The notes under the pieces were generated by a model. It searched no databases, was not told the origin of the DNA, and saw only the letters and a program-made list of their open reading frames with translations. Positions 1,881-7,485 of a stretch of DNA of 7,485 nt are shown here, one piece after another. The translations under genes and the position numbers were made by a program. Within the stretch, counting starts at the first letter, position 1. Every line of letters starts with the position of its first letter. Origin of the DNA: Pseudomonadota bacterium (GTDB taxonomy: Bacteria; BMS3Abin14); contig JAFGWO010000268.1 of NCBI GenBank assembly GCA_016937135.1, forward strand, positions 1 through 7,485, in the 5' to 3' direction.

Positions 1881-3026
1881 TCACAGCCCTTCCCTTGTCG
1901 TGCCGTCGGGGAGCATGTTGTCCGGATGAAAGAGGCCCTTTTCCTCCATGCGGTACCGGACGCAGCGTTTGCTGCCCACCATGCAGTAGTTGTCCACCCA
2001 AAAGGTCTCCAGCCTCCCCTGATCGGTGTACCCCTTGATGGGGCAGACGGGGTACCAATCACATGGGGTGACTATCCCTTCCCCCGTGAGGATCTCCCAG
2101 CCCGGGTTTCGAAACGATGCGGCATCCTCTTGCCCCGCCGCGTACCCCTCGTGCCAGTTGGCGGGCACTGGGAGCCAGGAGTAGAGCTTCTCCCTGAGGC
2201 TTTCCAGGAAAAGGGGCGCCCTCGTCATGAAATCCGCTGCGCAGATGACCCGGTTCGAGGCTTCCCGCCCGATCCTCTCCAGCCATGCCATCCCCTCCTC
2301 CGACCGGAGAAGGTGGTGGTCGATGATGAGGGTCTCGACCTTCCGCGAAAGCTCAAGGATATTGGTCCGGGCGAGCTCTTTCAACCTTTCCAGGGATGGG
2401 GAGCGATGGCGATAAAGAGGAGGCCCGGAGACAAGAACGATATCGGGTTTCCACTGCAGGATCCTTTCCACCGTCATGGCATCCAGGAGCTGGTTGTCGG
2501 AGGCGTGGACGAAGGTTTGGCCGTCGTCGTCCTCCACCCGAGTCATCATCACAGTGTGTGCGTCATCTCTTTGCAGCCCATGGGGGACTGGTGCTGAAAA
2601 GGCAAGGGGGCCATCCCGCATGCCTTCGGCAGGGGTAAGGATTCTTCCAAGGGCATCCTCCAGGTCCTTTCTCCGTCGCTGCTGATTTGGGGAGGAGCGT
2701 TCCGGTCCCATGGTCCAGAGGCGGCAACCAGAGATGCTCCGGCGCGCGTCCTCGAGGGAGAGCTGATAGGGGTTGGGGTGCAAAAGGGGAGTGTGGTCGC
2801 CGTCAAAATGACTGATGACGATATCGGTAGCGGTCTGGAGATCCCGGAGGATGGCCCCCCGTATGCCTTCGCCGATGGCGATCTGGAAGGGATGGGGGAG
2901 ATAACCCCCGCGCGACCATCCCAGGGCGATGCCGGGATCGATCATGATCTTTCGATCCCCAAGCTCCACCGAGCAGCAGAGGCCGCGGACCCCAAGGGAC
3001 TCCGCCGTCAGTATACAGATATCCAC
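1881..3026 (-). CDS. UPF0282-family metallo-beta-lactamase-fold protein with extra C-terminal four-cysteine region
   Basis: 381 residues. The N-terminal ~285 residues match the UPF0282 family of metallo-beta-lactamase-fold proteins, best known from archaea and without an established reaction. Visible hallmarks are 'ESLGVRGLCC' (9-18), 'IDPGIALG' (29-36), the metal motif HFDGDH (73-78, form HxDxDH), a histidine at 149, 'HASDNQ' (174-179), 'VSGPPLY' (199-205) and 'DHHLLR' (236-241). A binuclear metal site is therefore likely. Residues ~290-381 form an addition with C322-x5-C328 and C348-x6-C355, then 'HPDNMLPDG' (367-375). I recall a similar tail in some uracil-DNA-glycosylase-like proteins, but cannot verify this. 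The start is GTG at 3026, chosen because the conserved N-terminal motif begins right after it and no in-frame ATG lies closer; the ribosome binding site is weak. The gene converges with the permease, leaving 33 bases between them. It lies 65 bases after a lipoprotein gene on the same strand. A hydrolase or nuclease-like role is possible but unproven. Confidence 0.85.
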   Translation of the reverse strand: MDICILTAESLGVRGLCCSVELGDRKIMIDPGIALGWSRGGYLPHPFQIAIGEGIRGAILRDLQTATDIVISHFDGDHTPLLHPNPYQLSLEDARRSISGCRLWTMGPERSSPNQQRRRKDLEDALGRILTPAEGMRDGPLAFSAPVPHGLQRDDAHTVMMTRVEDDDGQTFVHASDNQLLDAMTVERILQWKPDIVLVSGPPLYRHRSPSLERLKELARTNILELSRKVETLIIDHHLLRSEEGMAWLERIGREASNRVICAADFMTRAPLFLESLREKLYSWLPVPANWHEGYAAGQEDAASFRNPGWEILTGEGIVTPCDWYPVCPIKGYTDQGRLETFWVDNYCMVGSKRCVRYRMEEKGLFHPDNMLPDGTTREGL

Positions 3027-3753: not shown

Positions 3754-4938
3754 CTAGAATGAAAAATCGATGGTCGTCGGCATGTCAGAGGACATGACGG
3801 GAACCGTGATGGTGGTTTCCCCGAAAGCCCCGATGACCTGGTAATCGGAAACGGGAAGGATCACGGAACTGGAATAGCCATCCATCACGTCGACGGTTTC
3901 GACGGTTATCATCTGATCCAGGGTTGTCCCCGCGCAGGCGATTTCCTGGCGGAAGTCTATGGTCGCGGAGTCGGTGGAACCGGCTCCGGCGATGCTGACA
4001 TTGACCCCGATGGTGCTGGTCGCCAGAGCGGCATCAAGGGCGAAGTCCACCGTGGTCGTGTCCCCAAGGGCCAGGTCGACGGTTTCGCAGGCAGGTGAAA
4101 AGCCGTCCTCGACAGCCACAATGTTGTAGGTCCCCGGCAGCATGTACAGCCTGTAGGAACCGAACTCACCGGACAGCGTTCCGGCCTTTATGACCACCTG
4201 GTCCATCGTGTCGGCGGCGGCAGGGTCAGCCGTCTGCGCCATGACGAAAGCGCCTTCCAGCGGTTCGGACCCATCTGTCACCGTTCCGGAAACGATGGCG
4301 GCAGCGTCCCCCTCGAAGATGGTTACCGTCGGCTTGAGAAGATAAAGCCCGCTGTCCCCGGCCTTGACCACGGACCGGCTGGCGTCAAAGTCCAGGGTAA
4401 TCTCCTGTGTCTGACCGCTCAGGACGTAGAAGCCTCCTACGATCTTCCACCCCGTTTCGGGGCCGCTGGGGACCTTCAGTTCGTGGACCGCGCCGCCATC
4501 CGCGTCAACGACGTAATTGGCGTGGGGATGATCCGGATCAGGGGTATCCGGGTCGTCATAAGGTTCCGACCCTATGATCAGGCGCATCTGGCTGTAATAT
4601 CCTGCCTCCACCTCCGTCACCCCGAGGGTCTCCCGGACGCCGTTGACGAGCACCAGGAGGTTGTAGGTGCCAAGTGTGTGCTCCCCGACCTCCGGTTCCG
4701 CCACCGTCACCCAGTAGCCGTCCTCGTCATCCTCGTCCCCGTAGTGCGCTTCCACCTTGTCAATGGTCACCCAGACCTCGCTGTAGTCCTGTGTCGTGCT
4801 GTCGGTGAGGGAGGTCACGAGGGTCCCTTCTCCAGCCGAACTGCTGTCCCCGTCTGAGCCCCCGCAGGCGGCGATAAGAACTCCAGCGGCCAGCACCGCC
4901 AGAATGGAACCGATCAACCCGATATTTTTCAGCTTCAT
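3754..4938 (-). CDS. DUF4382 domain lipoprotein with carboxypeptidase-regulatory-like domain
   Basis: 394 residues. The start is ATG at 4938, because a full AAAGGAGG lies 7 bases upstream (4946-4953); the frame stays open 11 codons further to a GTG at 4971, which lacks such a signal. The signal peptide runs MKLKNIGLIG..., with lipobox LIAAC ending at C25 and glycine next, so export to the outer membrane is likely. A Gly/Ser/Asp linker follows. Residues ~39-205 fit DUF4382: 'GTLVTSLTDSTTQDYSEVWV' (38-57), 'TIDKVEAHY' (58-66) and a terminal 'LYLLKPTVTIFEG'. Residues ~214-300 form a beta-sandwich resembling CarboxypepD_reg/CNA-B-like domains ('VSGTVTDGSEPLEGAFVMAQ', 'YMLPGTYNIVAVEDGF'). A further beta-rich region ends at 394. 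Acidic clusters at 67-75 and 125-136 could bind cations. DUF4382 proteins have no established function; an envelope adhesive or structural role is inference. It is the last gene before the terminator. Confidence 0.85.
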   Translation of the reverse strand: MKLKNIGLIGSILAVLAAGVLIAACGGSDGDSSSAGEGTLVTSLTDSTTQDYSEVWVTIDKVEAHYGDEDDEDGYWVTVAEPEVGEHTLGTYNLLVLVNGVRETLGVTEVEAGYYSQMRLIIGSEPYDDPDTPDPDHPHANYVVDADGGAVHELKVPSGPETGWKIVGGFYVLSGQTQEITLDFDASRSVVKAGDSGLYLLKPTVTIFEGDAAAIVSGTVTDGSEPLEGAFVMAQTADPAAADTMDQVVIKAGTLSGEFGSYRLYMLPGTYNIVAVEDGFSPACETVDLALGDTTTVDFALDAALATSTIGVNVSIAGAGSTDSATIDFRQEIACAGTTLDQMITVETVDVMDGYSSSVILPVSDYQVIGAFGETTITVPVMSSDMPTTIDFSF

Positions 4939-5068: not shown

Positions 5069-6052
5069 TCAGCGGCTTCGCCCCTCCGAAGCCTCGTCGG
5101 CAGTGTCCAGACCGGAGCTGCTGCGCCCTTCCGAGGCCTCGTCGGCTGTTTCCAGACCGGAACTGCTGCGCCCCTCCGAGGCCTCATCGGCCGTCTCCAG
5201 ACCCGTTTCGGCAGGATCCACCCCTTCCGAATCGGACGGGTCGGTCAGGAGGTTTTTCAGGTCCCCGGTTTCTCCTTTTTTCCGGGTGTTGACGAAGTTG
5301 AGGATAAAGGACCGCAGATTGCCCGGTCCGATATCCTTGTCCCTCACGACGGCCCGCACCAGCTCCGTGACAGGTTCATGTTCGATCCCGTACCCGCGGA
5401 GGGTTTTTACAAGTTCGATTACATCGCCCGGTTCCAGTTTTCCGTTTCCATCCGATTCCTCGGCCATGATCCCGATGATTTCCGTGAGCTGATCCCTGTC
5501 GAGGCCGGCGGCAATAGCGTCTGAAGACTCGGCAAGGAGCCTGCCGTATCCCTCTTCGGTGGAGAAGCGGGGTCCAGACACGGCGATGATCTGTGCCGCG
5601 GTTTCCATCCTTTCCGTAACCTTTCCAAGGGCAATGAGGATTCCCTGGCTGCCGGCATTTTTCGCAAGGCCCTCGAGAACCTTGGAAGCCAGGGGGGCCG
5701 CAGGAAGTCCCCTTTCCCGCGCGGATATGATTTCATCCAGTATCTCACCTGTGGACGTGGCGTCGACGCCCCGGTCAAGGCAATGCTCAACCACGGGAGC
5801 AATGACCCCGGGGGGAATGCCTGACTCGACGGCCTTCCGCGCTTTCTGGAGGATAAGGTTTCCACCCGTCTCGTCATTTTCCAGGCGGTACAGGATTGCC
5901 TCTTCGAGATCGTCGGGCAACCGGGCAGACCAGGCCGGGCTTGCTCCTGTTCCCCCAATGGAGCCCTGCAGGAGGATGATCAGGCCGAACATGAAAACCC
6001 GATTTGCCAGCCTCTTTGACCGCCTTTTTCCGGCCGAAGTTTCCACTTTCAC
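5069..6052 (-). CDS. Secreted helical protein with EF-hand-like loop and C-terminal tandem repeats, function unknown
   Basis: 327 residues from GTG at 6052, or 325 from GTG at 6046. GGGGAGG at 6057-6063 serves either, with 4 or 10 bases spacing. The frame stays open upstream to 6448, but that part overlaps the preceding CBM48 lipoprotein gene and is not protein-like. Residues ~10-18 are basic, 19-34 hydrophobic, and a signal-peptidase I site is plausible after 'GASPA' (40) or 'AWSA' (43). The mature protein is mostly amphipathic helix with a repeated flavour: 'ESGIPPGVIAPVVEHCLDRG' (76-95) and 'ERGLPAAPLASKVLEGLAK' (113-131). I recall the GLPxxPLxxKxxEGLAK pattern from uncharacterised deltaproteobacterial proteins. 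Residues 199-210 (ESDGNGKLEPGD) resemble an EF-hand or dockerin calcium loop. The last 44 residues are three copies of a 15-residue acidic Ser-rich repeat. It begins 26 bases after the CBM48 lipoprotein. The end may be frameshifted (see finding). Confidence 0.7.
   Translation of the reverse strand: MKVETSAGKRRSKRLANRVFMFGLIILLQGSIGGTGASPAWSARLPDDLEEAILYRLENDETGGNLILQKARKAVESGIPPGVIAPVVEHCLDRGVDATSTGEILDEIISARERGLPAAPLASKVLEGLAKNAGSQGILIALGKVTERMETAAQIIAVSGPRFSTEEGYGRLLAESSDAIAAGLDRDQLTEIIGIMAEESDGNGKLEPGDVIELVKTLRGYGIEHEPVTELVRAVVRDKDIGPGNLRSFILNFVNTRKKGETGDLKNLLTDPSDSEGVDPAETGLETADEASEGRSSSGLETADEASEGRSSSGLDTADEASEGRSR
5072..5203 (-). repeat. Three tandem 45-bp coding repeats (15-residue unit)
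   Basis: Three head-to-tail copies at 5159-5203, 5114-5158 and 5072-5113 (the last slightly short) encode the unit GLETADEASEGRSSS, with only E to D and final-residue changes at protein level. At DNA level most differences are in third codon positions, so the repeat has been kept in frame. The unit is acidic and Ser/Ala-rich and probably disordered. The array sits exactly at the 3' end of the gene. Confidence 0.9.
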
Positions 6053-6078: not shown

Positions 6079-6468
6079 TCAGTATGTTTCCAGTTTTCCG
6101 TCTGACGTTTTTTCTACCCTGATCACACCGCTCATTCCTCCGAAATCGTCCACCATCAATCTCTCCATTGAGGATTCGACGGTTGGGGTCCCGTCTACCA
6201 TAAAGAAATACCGGTAATTCCCGGGGGGAAGCTTCAAAAAAGAGACCCAGAAACCCGTTTTCGTCTTTACAGAACTTATCTCGAACAGGACCGGATCGGC
6301 CGGCGGCTGAGCTATCACAACCAGGGTGACCTCCGAAGCCCGGGGCGCATTGACGTGAAAATATACATGCTCGTCTTTGGCCGTCGTGGCCTCCGGAGCG
6401 GCCGCGCATCCTGCCAGCGCTGCCAGTACCAGGCAAATCATGATCCATTCCGCAGGTCTCATGGTCAT
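6079..6468 (-). CDS. Lipoprotein with degenerate CBM48/AMPK-type glycan-binding module
   Basis: 129 residues. The signal peptide has a hydrophobic run (about 8-18) and a clear lipobox LAGC ending at C21, with Ala at +2, so outer-membrane placement is likely. The rest is one beta-sandwich (about 34-118) of the early-set/CBM48 type: 'HVYFHVNAPRASEVTLVV', 'GFWVSFLKLPPGNYRYFFMV' (72-91), then 'VDDFGGMSGVIRV' (106-118). The second half aligns in the same order with the C-terminal domain of the preceding gene, so the two modules are paralogous. The GDFNxW and WxPDP motifs that carry ligand-contact aromatics in typical CBM48 domains are absent, so glycan binding may be weakened or replaced by protein contact. 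The ATG at 6468 directly follows the TAA of the upstream gene (stop at 6469-6471), with only a weak upstream purine run (AGGG), which suggests translational coupling. A second ATG two codons on (6462) is an alternative start. Confidence 0.82.
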   Translation of the reverse strand: MTMRPAEWIMICLVLAALAGCAAAPEATTAKDEHVYFHVNAPRASEVTLVVIAQPPADPVLFEISSVKTKTGFWVSFLKLPPGNYRYFFMVDGTPTVESSMERLMVDDFGGMSGVIRVEKTSDGKLETY

Positions 6469-7059
6469 TTACAGGCCGACCCTTACTACGGAATTCGTGG
6501 CCCCGAAATCATCGCTGACGAGGTAATCAGCCGTCGGATCCGGAATCCAGCGCTGATTATCCACAACGATGACGTACTGATATTCCCCCGCTGCCGCGGA
6601 GATCTCCCCGACCCAGTATCCCGTGTTTTCCTTTTGACTCAACGGGAAGGGGGCCGCCCAATTGTTGAAATCCCCTGAGACCGACACCGAGCTTGCCTGG
6701 GGGTCGAAGTAGACGACACGGAAGGTCGCCGACGCCAAGGCAACCTGCCCGGGCTTCTTGACGGCGAAAGGTCCTGCCAGAAGGAAAAAGAGGAGAACCG
6801 CTGCCGCCGGCGCGAAGATGGCCAACCGGATTCTCTTCGAAAAGAACATCGTCGTTGGGACAGAGGGTCGCCCGAACCTGAGCCGAGGCGCCTCGAAATC
6901 CTCATCACCACGGCATGCCTCGATCAGATTTCTTAAACCTCGGACGTATCCCGAAAGGGGGGGCTCGGCCTCGAGGCGGTTTTCGAATGCCTGCCTGTCC
7001 TCCCCGCCAAGTTCCTCATCCACATATCGATTGGCCAGAATGACATCCTCAATTCTCAA
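6469..7059 (-). CDS. Membrane-anchored putative anti-sigma factor with periplasmic CBM48 domain
   Basis: 196 residues in three parts. Residues 1-~60 are a soluble helical segment ('YVDEELGGEDRQAFENRLEA', 12-31) resembling the N-terminus of anti-sigma factors that bind ECF sigmas, but without the HxxxCxxC zinc motif. Residues ~79-97 form one transmembrane helix preceded by basic residues (KRIR, 75-78), which places the N-terminus in the cytoplasm. Residues ~112-195 are a CBM48/AMPK1-type module with 'GDFNNW' (129-134), 'GYWVGEISAAAGEYQYVIVV' (147-166), 'WIPDP' (171-175) and 'DDFGATNSVVRV' (183-194), so it should face the periplasm. The start is TTG at 7059, overlapping the sigma-factor stop as TTGA, with GAGGAGG at 7067-7073 spaced 7 bases. 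Family knowledge: such CBM48 domains bind alpha-glucans or mediate protein contacts. Role as anti-sigma is inferred from gene order and layout. C50 is the only cysteine. Confidence 0.82.
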   Translation of the reverse strand: MRIEDVILANRYVDEELGGEDRQAFENRLEAEPPLSGYVRGLRNLIEACRGDEDFEAPRLRFGRPSVPTTMFFSKRIRLAIFAPAAAVLLFFLLAGPFAVKKPGQVALASATFRVVYFDPQASSVSVSGDFNNWAAPFPLSQKENTGYWVGEISAAAGEYQYVIVVDNQRWIPDPTADYLVSDDFGATNSVVRVGL

Positions 7060-7485
7060 AATCCGTCCTCCTCAATCATTGATCTTAAAAGGTGCCGGGC
7101 CCGGTAAATCCTGACACGGGCGGCATTCTCATTGAGATCGCAGATCCTGCCGATTTCAACGTAGGACAGGTTATCCACATGGCGAAGGAGGAAGGGGATC
7201 CGGTACCTCTCATCCAGGCTGTTGATAATTTCCCAAAGTTTTTGACCGGTTTCGGCTCCGGAGAGGATTTCTTCCGGCGACCGTCCCTCGTTATCGGACA
7301 ACCTTTCCACGATCCCGACAATGTCCTTTTTCCTGTTCTTTCCCGTAACATGTTTTTTCCAGGCATTGATGGCAATGCGGTAAATCCAGGATGAAAACGG
7401 GGCTTCCCCCCGGTACTGGCGCCTGTTTTTATAGGCCAGGTAAGCGGCTTCCTGGAGGATTTCTTCGGCGATATCCCGGTCGCCG
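7056..7485 (-). CDS. ECF (sigma-70 family) RNA polymerase sigma factor, 5' end outside window
   Basis: 142 residues are visible, reading in from the window edge at codon 7484-7482 to the TGA at 7056-7058. The first methionine in frame (residue 136) is near the C-terminus and the GTG at 7310 is internal, so the gene must start upstream of the window. Residues 1-45 match the end of sigma region 2: 'GDRDIAEEILQEAAYLAY' and 'YRGEAPFSSWIYRIAINAWK', the part that contacts core polymerase and the -10 element. After a basic linker (43-53), region 4 (about 83-137) carries the helix-turn-helix for the -35: 'LDERYRIPFLLRHVDNLSY', 'VEIGRICDLNENAARVRIYR'. There is no sign of region 1.1 or 3, as expected of the ECF class. 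The stop overlaps the next gene's TTG, the usual arrangement of a sigma factor with its anti-sigma. ECF sigmas often activate their own operon, so the promoter is probably upstream and not visible. Confidence 0.92.
   Translation of the reverse strand, partial: GDRDIAEEILQEAAYLAYKNRRQYRGEAPFSSWIYRIAINAWKKHVTGKNRKKDIVGIVERLSDNEGRSPEEILSGAETGQKLWEIINSLDERYRIPFLLRHVDNLSYVEIGRICDLNENAARVRIYRARHLLRSMIEEDGF
7067..7073 (-). promoter_or_regulatory. Shine-Dalgarno GAGGAGG for the TTG start of the anti-sigma gene
   Basis: Read on the minus strand, GAGGAGG lies within the last codons of the sigma-factor gene and 7 bases before the TTG at 7059. It supports this rare start codon over any downstream ATG, the next being at residue 71, after the anti-sigma-like segment. 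Confidence 0.8.

Follow-up and report, generated by a model that had tools for sequence, protein, structure and literature searches.

Two described systems, RsgI and ECF52, already combine anti-sigma function with carbohydrate modules. In the available portions of the literature, the sources of such anti-sigmas are cellulose-degrading clostridia and, as fused sigma factors, Streptomyces. In Clostridium thermocellum, the sigma gene (SigI) is followed by the gene for a one-helix membrane anti-sigma (RsgI) with an extracytoplasmic carbohydrate-module sensor; the sensor domains described are CBM3, CBM42, PA14 and GH10, and the system is autoregulated (accessible parts of PMC6056542 and PMC12203970). 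An autocleaving periplasmic domain is a further feature of RsgI (PMC12203970, same parts). ECF52 (SCO4117 of Streptomyces coelicolor), according to the accessible text of PMC5826349 and PMC8999054, is one fused protein found in Actinobacteria only; its signalling chain comprises an extracytoplasmic function (ECF) sigma, a zf-HC2-type domain, a transmembrane helix and a carbohydrate-binding module (CBM), smart00776. In Bacteroides and other glycan-use systems, an ECF sigma is freed from a membrane anti-sigma by a glycan signal (review PMC10766802). These systems are tied to transporters and glycan-degrading enzymes, and the sections of PMC10766802 available to us do not mention a CBM48 sensor. 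Class I anti-sigma domains (ASDI; RseA, RskA, RsiW, ChrR) are N-terminal and helical, zinc is optional and membrane-bound forms are common (PMC7406223, in part); the terms carbohydrate, CBM, AMPK and glycogen are absent from the main text of that paper. Here, a 7,485-nucleotide stretch of DNA (the window) from a Pseudomonadota bacterium of a little-known lineage is described, in which an ECF sigma gene precedes genes for an anti-sigma-like membrane protein with a predicted periplasmic CBM48 domain, a lipoprotein and a probably secreted protein, ORF4 (open reading frame 4).

The locus shares with SigI/RsgI the gene order, the one-helix architecture of the membrane protein, a predicted extracytoplasmic carbohydrate module and signs of autoregulation. 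It differs in having a typical ECF sigma, a CBM48 module and no polysaccharide enzyme in the operon, and no RsgI-type family was found among its Pfam matches at E values up to 1. The signalling chain of ECF52 has a likely counterpart here, but it is divided between two genes rather than fused, there is no zinc motif, the module is CBM48 and a CBM48-like lipoprotein is added. Unlike the glycan-use systems, the operon contains neither transporters nor glycan-degrading enzymes. The membrane-bound form is one common among class I anti-sigmas, and the predicted N-terminal helices may correspond to their helical domain. A literature search found no CBM48-type anti-sigma whose ECF sigma is encoded by a gene of its own and which is joined by a lipoprotein of CBM48-like type; the main ECF classification was outside its coverage.

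With a probability of roughly 0.6, the locus is an ECF operon in which the membrane protein is likely the anti-sigma factor and an envelope signal is probably sensed by its periplasmic domain, which has a predicted CBM48 fold. The window makes up one entire contig, G000:C129; the genome it belongs to measures 1.71 Mb, with completeness rated at 81%. Its open reading frames include a minus-strand series of four genes with the following features.

7484-7056, minus strand: ECF sigma factor, 3' 142 codons (Pfam Sigma70_r2 and r4_2; contig overlap)
7059-6469, minus strand: anti-sigma-like membrane protein of 196 aa, starting with TTG
6910..7059, minus strand: N-terminal anti-sigma-like domain, residues 1-50 (AlphaFold2 helices, weak profile matches)
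6757..6837, minus strand: single transmembrane segment, residues 75-101 (hydropathy)
6472..6741, minus strand: predicted periplasmic CBM48/AMPK1_CBM-fold domain, residues 107-196
6658..6675, minus strand: GDFNNW motif; its Trp134 is the alignment equivalent of W100 in AMPK and does not vary within the family
6547..6549, minus strand: Trp171, aligned with AMPK W133; 2 of 11 family members have an equivalent
6079..6468, minus strand: lipoprotein with a degenerate CBM48-like domain; lipobox Cys21 at 6406-6408
5069..6052, minus strand: ORF4, probably secreted helical protein; GTG start at 6052 or 6046

The sigma, membrane protein, lipoprotein and ORF4 genes are one gene set. The TGA of the sigma gene and the TTG start of the membrane-protein gene overlap by 4 bases, and GAGGAGG sits 7 bases 5' of this TTG; the lipoprotein ATG directly abuts the TAA of the membrane-protein gene. 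An earlier, first-pass annotation of the sequence had reported this overlap, the abutment and their coordinates correctly. Its range of 6079..7485 was too short, as ORF4 (5069-6052) is also part of the set.

The phylum sample comprised 12 genomes, all of one family. Seven of these encode the full-length membrane protein, the same seven carry the sigma ortholog, and none has only one of the two, which supports the proposed sigma/anti-sigma pairing. Sigma orthologs that pair with a different anti-sigma, which the first-pass annotation had named as a finding that would speak against it, were looked for and not found; the sample contains no sigma ortholog lacking the membrane-protein gene. Only distant ECF sigmas are carried by the five genomes without the pair (completeness: G001 100%, G007 98%, G011 91%, G002 73%, G006 78%). 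The sigma, membrane-protein and lipoprotein genes stand in identical order in five genomes besides that of the window, G000 (G003, G004, G005, G008 and G009), and a sixth, G010, has the sigma and membrane protein together; the arrangement is therefore more than chance.

The sigma passes the Pfam cut-offs for Sigma70_r2 and r4_2 and scores 62.0 bits against TIGR02937 (cut-off 42.9). Its 5' end is found on a second contig of the same genome (G000:C222, L143), which holds the first 25 codons and whose end is identical to the window end across 87 exact bases. Joined, the two contigs give a full-length sigma of 167 aa with regions 2 and 4 only, an ECF layout within the usual length of about 160-200 aa. 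The best solved relatives are ECF sigmas, for example sigma-H, sigma-E and SigW.

The membrane protein likely acts as the anti-sigma factor of the adjoining sigma, judging from its gene position, its sequence and its model. As is typical of class I anti-sigma genes, its gene directly follows the sigma, encodes a single-pass membrane protein and co-occurs with the sigma in 7/7 carriers. A single hydrophobic stretch spans residues 75-101, where hydropathy reaches 2.38 across a 19-residue span, in agreement with the single transmembrane helix first proposed. The helical cytoplasmic part may be an anti-sigma domain: the AlphaFold2 model predicts helices at residues 3-13, 19-31 and 33-50 (block means of the predicted local distance difference test, pLDDT, 85-95), the 'anti-sigma factor' profile NF052375 matches weakly in 8/9 family members, and hhalign aligns the N-terminus at 95.7% with the N-termini of proteins carrying the zinc motif. 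That motif, Hx3Cx2C, which characterises the zinc-binding anti-sigma (ZAS) subgroup, is absent from all nine aligned family members; it is present in 69 of 92 collected proteins, and zf-HC2 was found in 3 of 16 scanned members.

Proteins with zf-HC2, a transmembrane segment and CBM48 are also encoded elsewhere in G003, G005 and G009 (L035:9086-9727, minus; L036:8754-9395, minus; L037:8216-8860, plus), with no sigma within the stretches around them. In G005 and G009 they are followed by a short gene resembling ORF4 by eye and then by multiheme cytochrome genes. A common GTAAC-N17-GTAT motif, with a -10 unlike that of the sigma operon, lies upstream of those in G003 and G005.

The periplasmic part is predicted to fold like the AMPK glycogen-binding module. 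It scores 34.2 bits against AMPK1_CBM (cut-off 26.8) and 31.4 against CBM_48 (cut-off 22.4), and curated profile score and predicted fold together place it in CBM48/AMPK1_CBM, as the first-pass annotation had it. In 16/16 scanned members, which had been picked for similarity, both profiles match with E values no higher than 0.01. A separate 96-aa protein of G000 (L045:4176-4466, contig G000:C9) is nearly entirely one CBM48/AMPK1_CBM domain and has a relative in G001.

The lipoprotein gene is present in 6/7 carriers, and lipobox Cys21 is invariant in 6/6 lipoproteins. Its CBM48-like nature, also proposed earlier, is supported by a CBM_48 score barely over the cut-off (22.6 bits; 22.4) and by the family profile, which finds the AMPK beta1 CBM at E 1.9e-4; AMPK1_CBM stays below its cut-off (25.0 bits; 26.8).

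ORF4 is found in 7/7 carriers (partly masked in G008), with a partial copy in G002. Its N-terminus is signal-like, and AlphaFold2 predicts that residues 45-256 form a helical repeat array (mostly with block means of 77-95 for pLDDT), followed by a tail of low confidence; there was no PDB match at E 0.001 or better. Its C-terminus (window 5069-5240) contains about three near-identical repeats (GLETADEASEGRSSS). Acidic tails replace repeats of this type in several orthologs and in orf0, an upstream gene for an acid-tailed, probably secreted protein. This gene is present in 6/7 carriers and was not seen in G000; it was identified by the ORF4 profile in G004, G005 and G009 and by eye in G003, G008 and G010.

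ECF sigma promoters have an AAC-type -35 and a GTC-type -10 at fixed spacing. Upstream of the sigma, a spacer of exactly 17 bases separates GTAAC from GTCTA in G003, G004, G005, G009 and G010, and G008 has one mismatch (GTAAT-N17-GTCTA). The sigma thus has a promoter pattern of its own type in front of it, exact in five carriers. The same GTAAC-N17 arrangement, with GTCTA, GTCCA or GTCTG, precedes orf0 in G003, G004, G008, G009 and G005, and G010 has GGAAC-N17-ATCCA there. The sigma and orf0 upstream regions have a promoter motif in common, a check proposed in the first pass. Counted over the 12 genomes together, there are 12 occurrences of GTAACG-N16-GTCYA and 14 of GTAAC-N17-GTCYAA; in each case, eight occurrences precede orf0 or the sigma at this locus. 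A copy of the sigma promoter motif in G008 lies upstream of a PilZ-domain gene (L157:1501-1932), a possible extra target of the sigma.

A mechanism can be proposed on this basis. We infer that the N-terminal domain of the membrane protein would tether the sigma to the membrane. Reading the state of the envelope would fall to the CBM48 domain and the CBM48-like domain of the lipoprotein, in this lineage most likely via domain-domain contact and not via canonical alpha-glucan binding. Once this contact is lost, the anti-sigma would be proteolysed, and the freed sigma would transcribe its own operon and orf0 (positive autoregulation). Its release would raise the levels of the secreted helical proteins and of the lipoprotein; the latter would then cap the anti-sigma anew.

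The first-pass annotation favoured a glucan sensor: the periplasmic CBM48 domain would bind an alpha-glucan or maltodextrin and release the sigma, and the lipoprotein would relay the signal or compete for the sugar. We consider this unlikely, although the profile matches in all scanned members lend it some weight. In AMPK beta1, the glucan contacts are W100, K126, W133, L146, T148 and N150 (PMC2642990, PMC4032982, in the parts accessible); contact residues were compared in 11 family members, namely nine alignment rows plus P0061 and P0068. The equivalents of W100 and N150 are invariant (9/9 alignment rows). Of the two motifs first noted, GDFNNW contains the invariant W100 equivalent; WIPDP is not a family trait, since its Trp, the W133 equivalent, is absent from 9/11 members and present only in the window protein and P0061. 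The K126 equivalent is absent from 11/11. P0002 and P0003, the two closest relatives of the window protein, are among the members without W133 and K126 equivalents. The AMPK-type combination of W100, K126, W133 and N150 does not occur in these 11 members; the window protein itself has all but K126. The domain is like the AMPK beta module in predicted fold and in W100 and N150, but differs at these other positions and in its setting, a membrane anti-sigma-like protein instead of a kinase complex. Both Trps are absent from 6/6 lipoproteins but are kept in 9/11 sigma-linked CBM48 proteins outside this family. A GH13 gene was detected in one carrier only, G000, where it presumably encodes a debranching enzyme, judged by eye; none was found in the other six, two of which are rated 100% complete and two 71% and 81%. 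A GT5 (glycogen synthase family) gene was detected in G000 and G005 and not in the other five. These searches were positive in 13/14 (GH13) and 12/14 (GT5) control genomes. None of the examined promoter matches (four of GTAAC-N17-GTCYAA outside the set) precedes a carbohydrate gene. From the contact residues and the GH13/GT5 distribution, the window protein and its more remote relatives may sense glucan, but this is not a family trait here; with the sugar site mostly eroded in this lineage, glycogen is probably not what the sensor reads.

Most family members have lost binding residues, which would also suit a CBM48 domain that serves as a structural spacer or for dimerisation. The signal would then be perceived at another point, for instance through proteolysis set off by a misfolded envelope protein or by ORF4. 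Regulated proteolysis of anti-sigmas is well known. However, the domain is the best conserved part of the protein (among the 43 columns without variation in the nine-row alignment, 33 fall in residues 113-195; the domain includes a conserved DDFG..NSV..G stretch) and the same module adjoins ECF sigmas of other phyla, which makes this quite improbable. The membrane protein might instead be a co-transcribed envelope protein and no anti-sigma, with the sigma controlled otherwise. The zf-HC2 relatives without a nearby sigma in G003, G005 and G009 point this way; against them stand the anti-sigma-like N-terminus, the 4-base overlap, the co-occurrence and the adjacency in other phyla, and we give this explanation very little credence.

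Several observations weigh against an anti-sigma with an envelope-sensing CBM48 domain as set out above. The whole model of the membrane protein has a predicted template modelling score (pTM) of 0.45 and 44 residues with pLDDT <50; its NF052375 score is 16.9 bits (cut-off 100) and its RsiW match has an E value of only 0.36. The invariant W100 equivalent, and the presence of both Trps in the window protein, P0061 and most members from other phyla, leave some probability for sugar binding. The proposed contact between the CBM48 domain and the lipoprotein is conjectured from their common fold and the order of their genes, and in G010 no lipoprotein was found adjacent to the sigma/membrane pair. 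The sigma promoter of G000 has a deviant -10 (GTAAC-N17-ATCTT), and one good-looking pattern match lies in G002, which is without the sigma. Promoter-pattern totals are below those of reversed-pattern controls (12 vs 30, 14 vs 36); the motif count is therefore not enriched, and it is the clustering at one locus that counts. The sigma ortholog of G009 is without an internal in-frame stretch of about 76 residues (L031:9415-9684), which may reflect either a genuine deletion or faulty assembly. Some absences of the pair may be gaps, as G002 and G006 are so incomplete.

The pairing extends to other groups, as a survey for conserved sigma/CBM48 neighbours, proposed in the first pass, revealed. Besides the 7/12 phylum genomes, an ECF sigma lies just upstream on the same strand at 8 of 38 named CBM48 loci: two in Nitrospirota, five in Gemmatimonadota and one in Salinivenus. 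All eight proteins pass AMPK1_CBM and CBM_48, each with one hydrophobic segment. Thirteen genomes outside the family have a match, and among the loci examined, an ECF sigma is upstream in G025 (twice) and G031. A profile search found a second CBM48-like protein downstream at six of the eight loci (L048, L049, L050, L051, L054, L060); when run against Pfam, that of L049 is over the AMPK1_CBM cut-off and that of L051 below the CBM_48 cut-off. Tentatively, these loci may form a two-gene ECF class of several phyla, with a periplasmic CBM48 as anti-sigma sensor and often a second CBM48 protein downstream; in this phylum the glucan site would have been lost, leaving a protein-contact envelope sensor with a lipoprotein partner. 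If so, an alpha-glucan module has been recruited for transmembrane signalling in several other bacterial groups, as a bacterial counterpart of the AMPK glycogen sensor. Erosion of the site in the lineage described here would then offer a test of how a sugar module turns into a protein or envelope sensor.

Further genes lie in the rest of the window. DUF4382 and a carboxypeptidase-regulatory-like domain are present in a lipoprotein-like protein encoded at 3754-4938, downstream of ORF4 on the same strand. The protein at 1881-3026 has its best match in the PRK04286 hypothetical family, below that family's cut-off. Positions 198-1847 encode an ABC transporter permease with BPD_transp_1 matches over two stretches.
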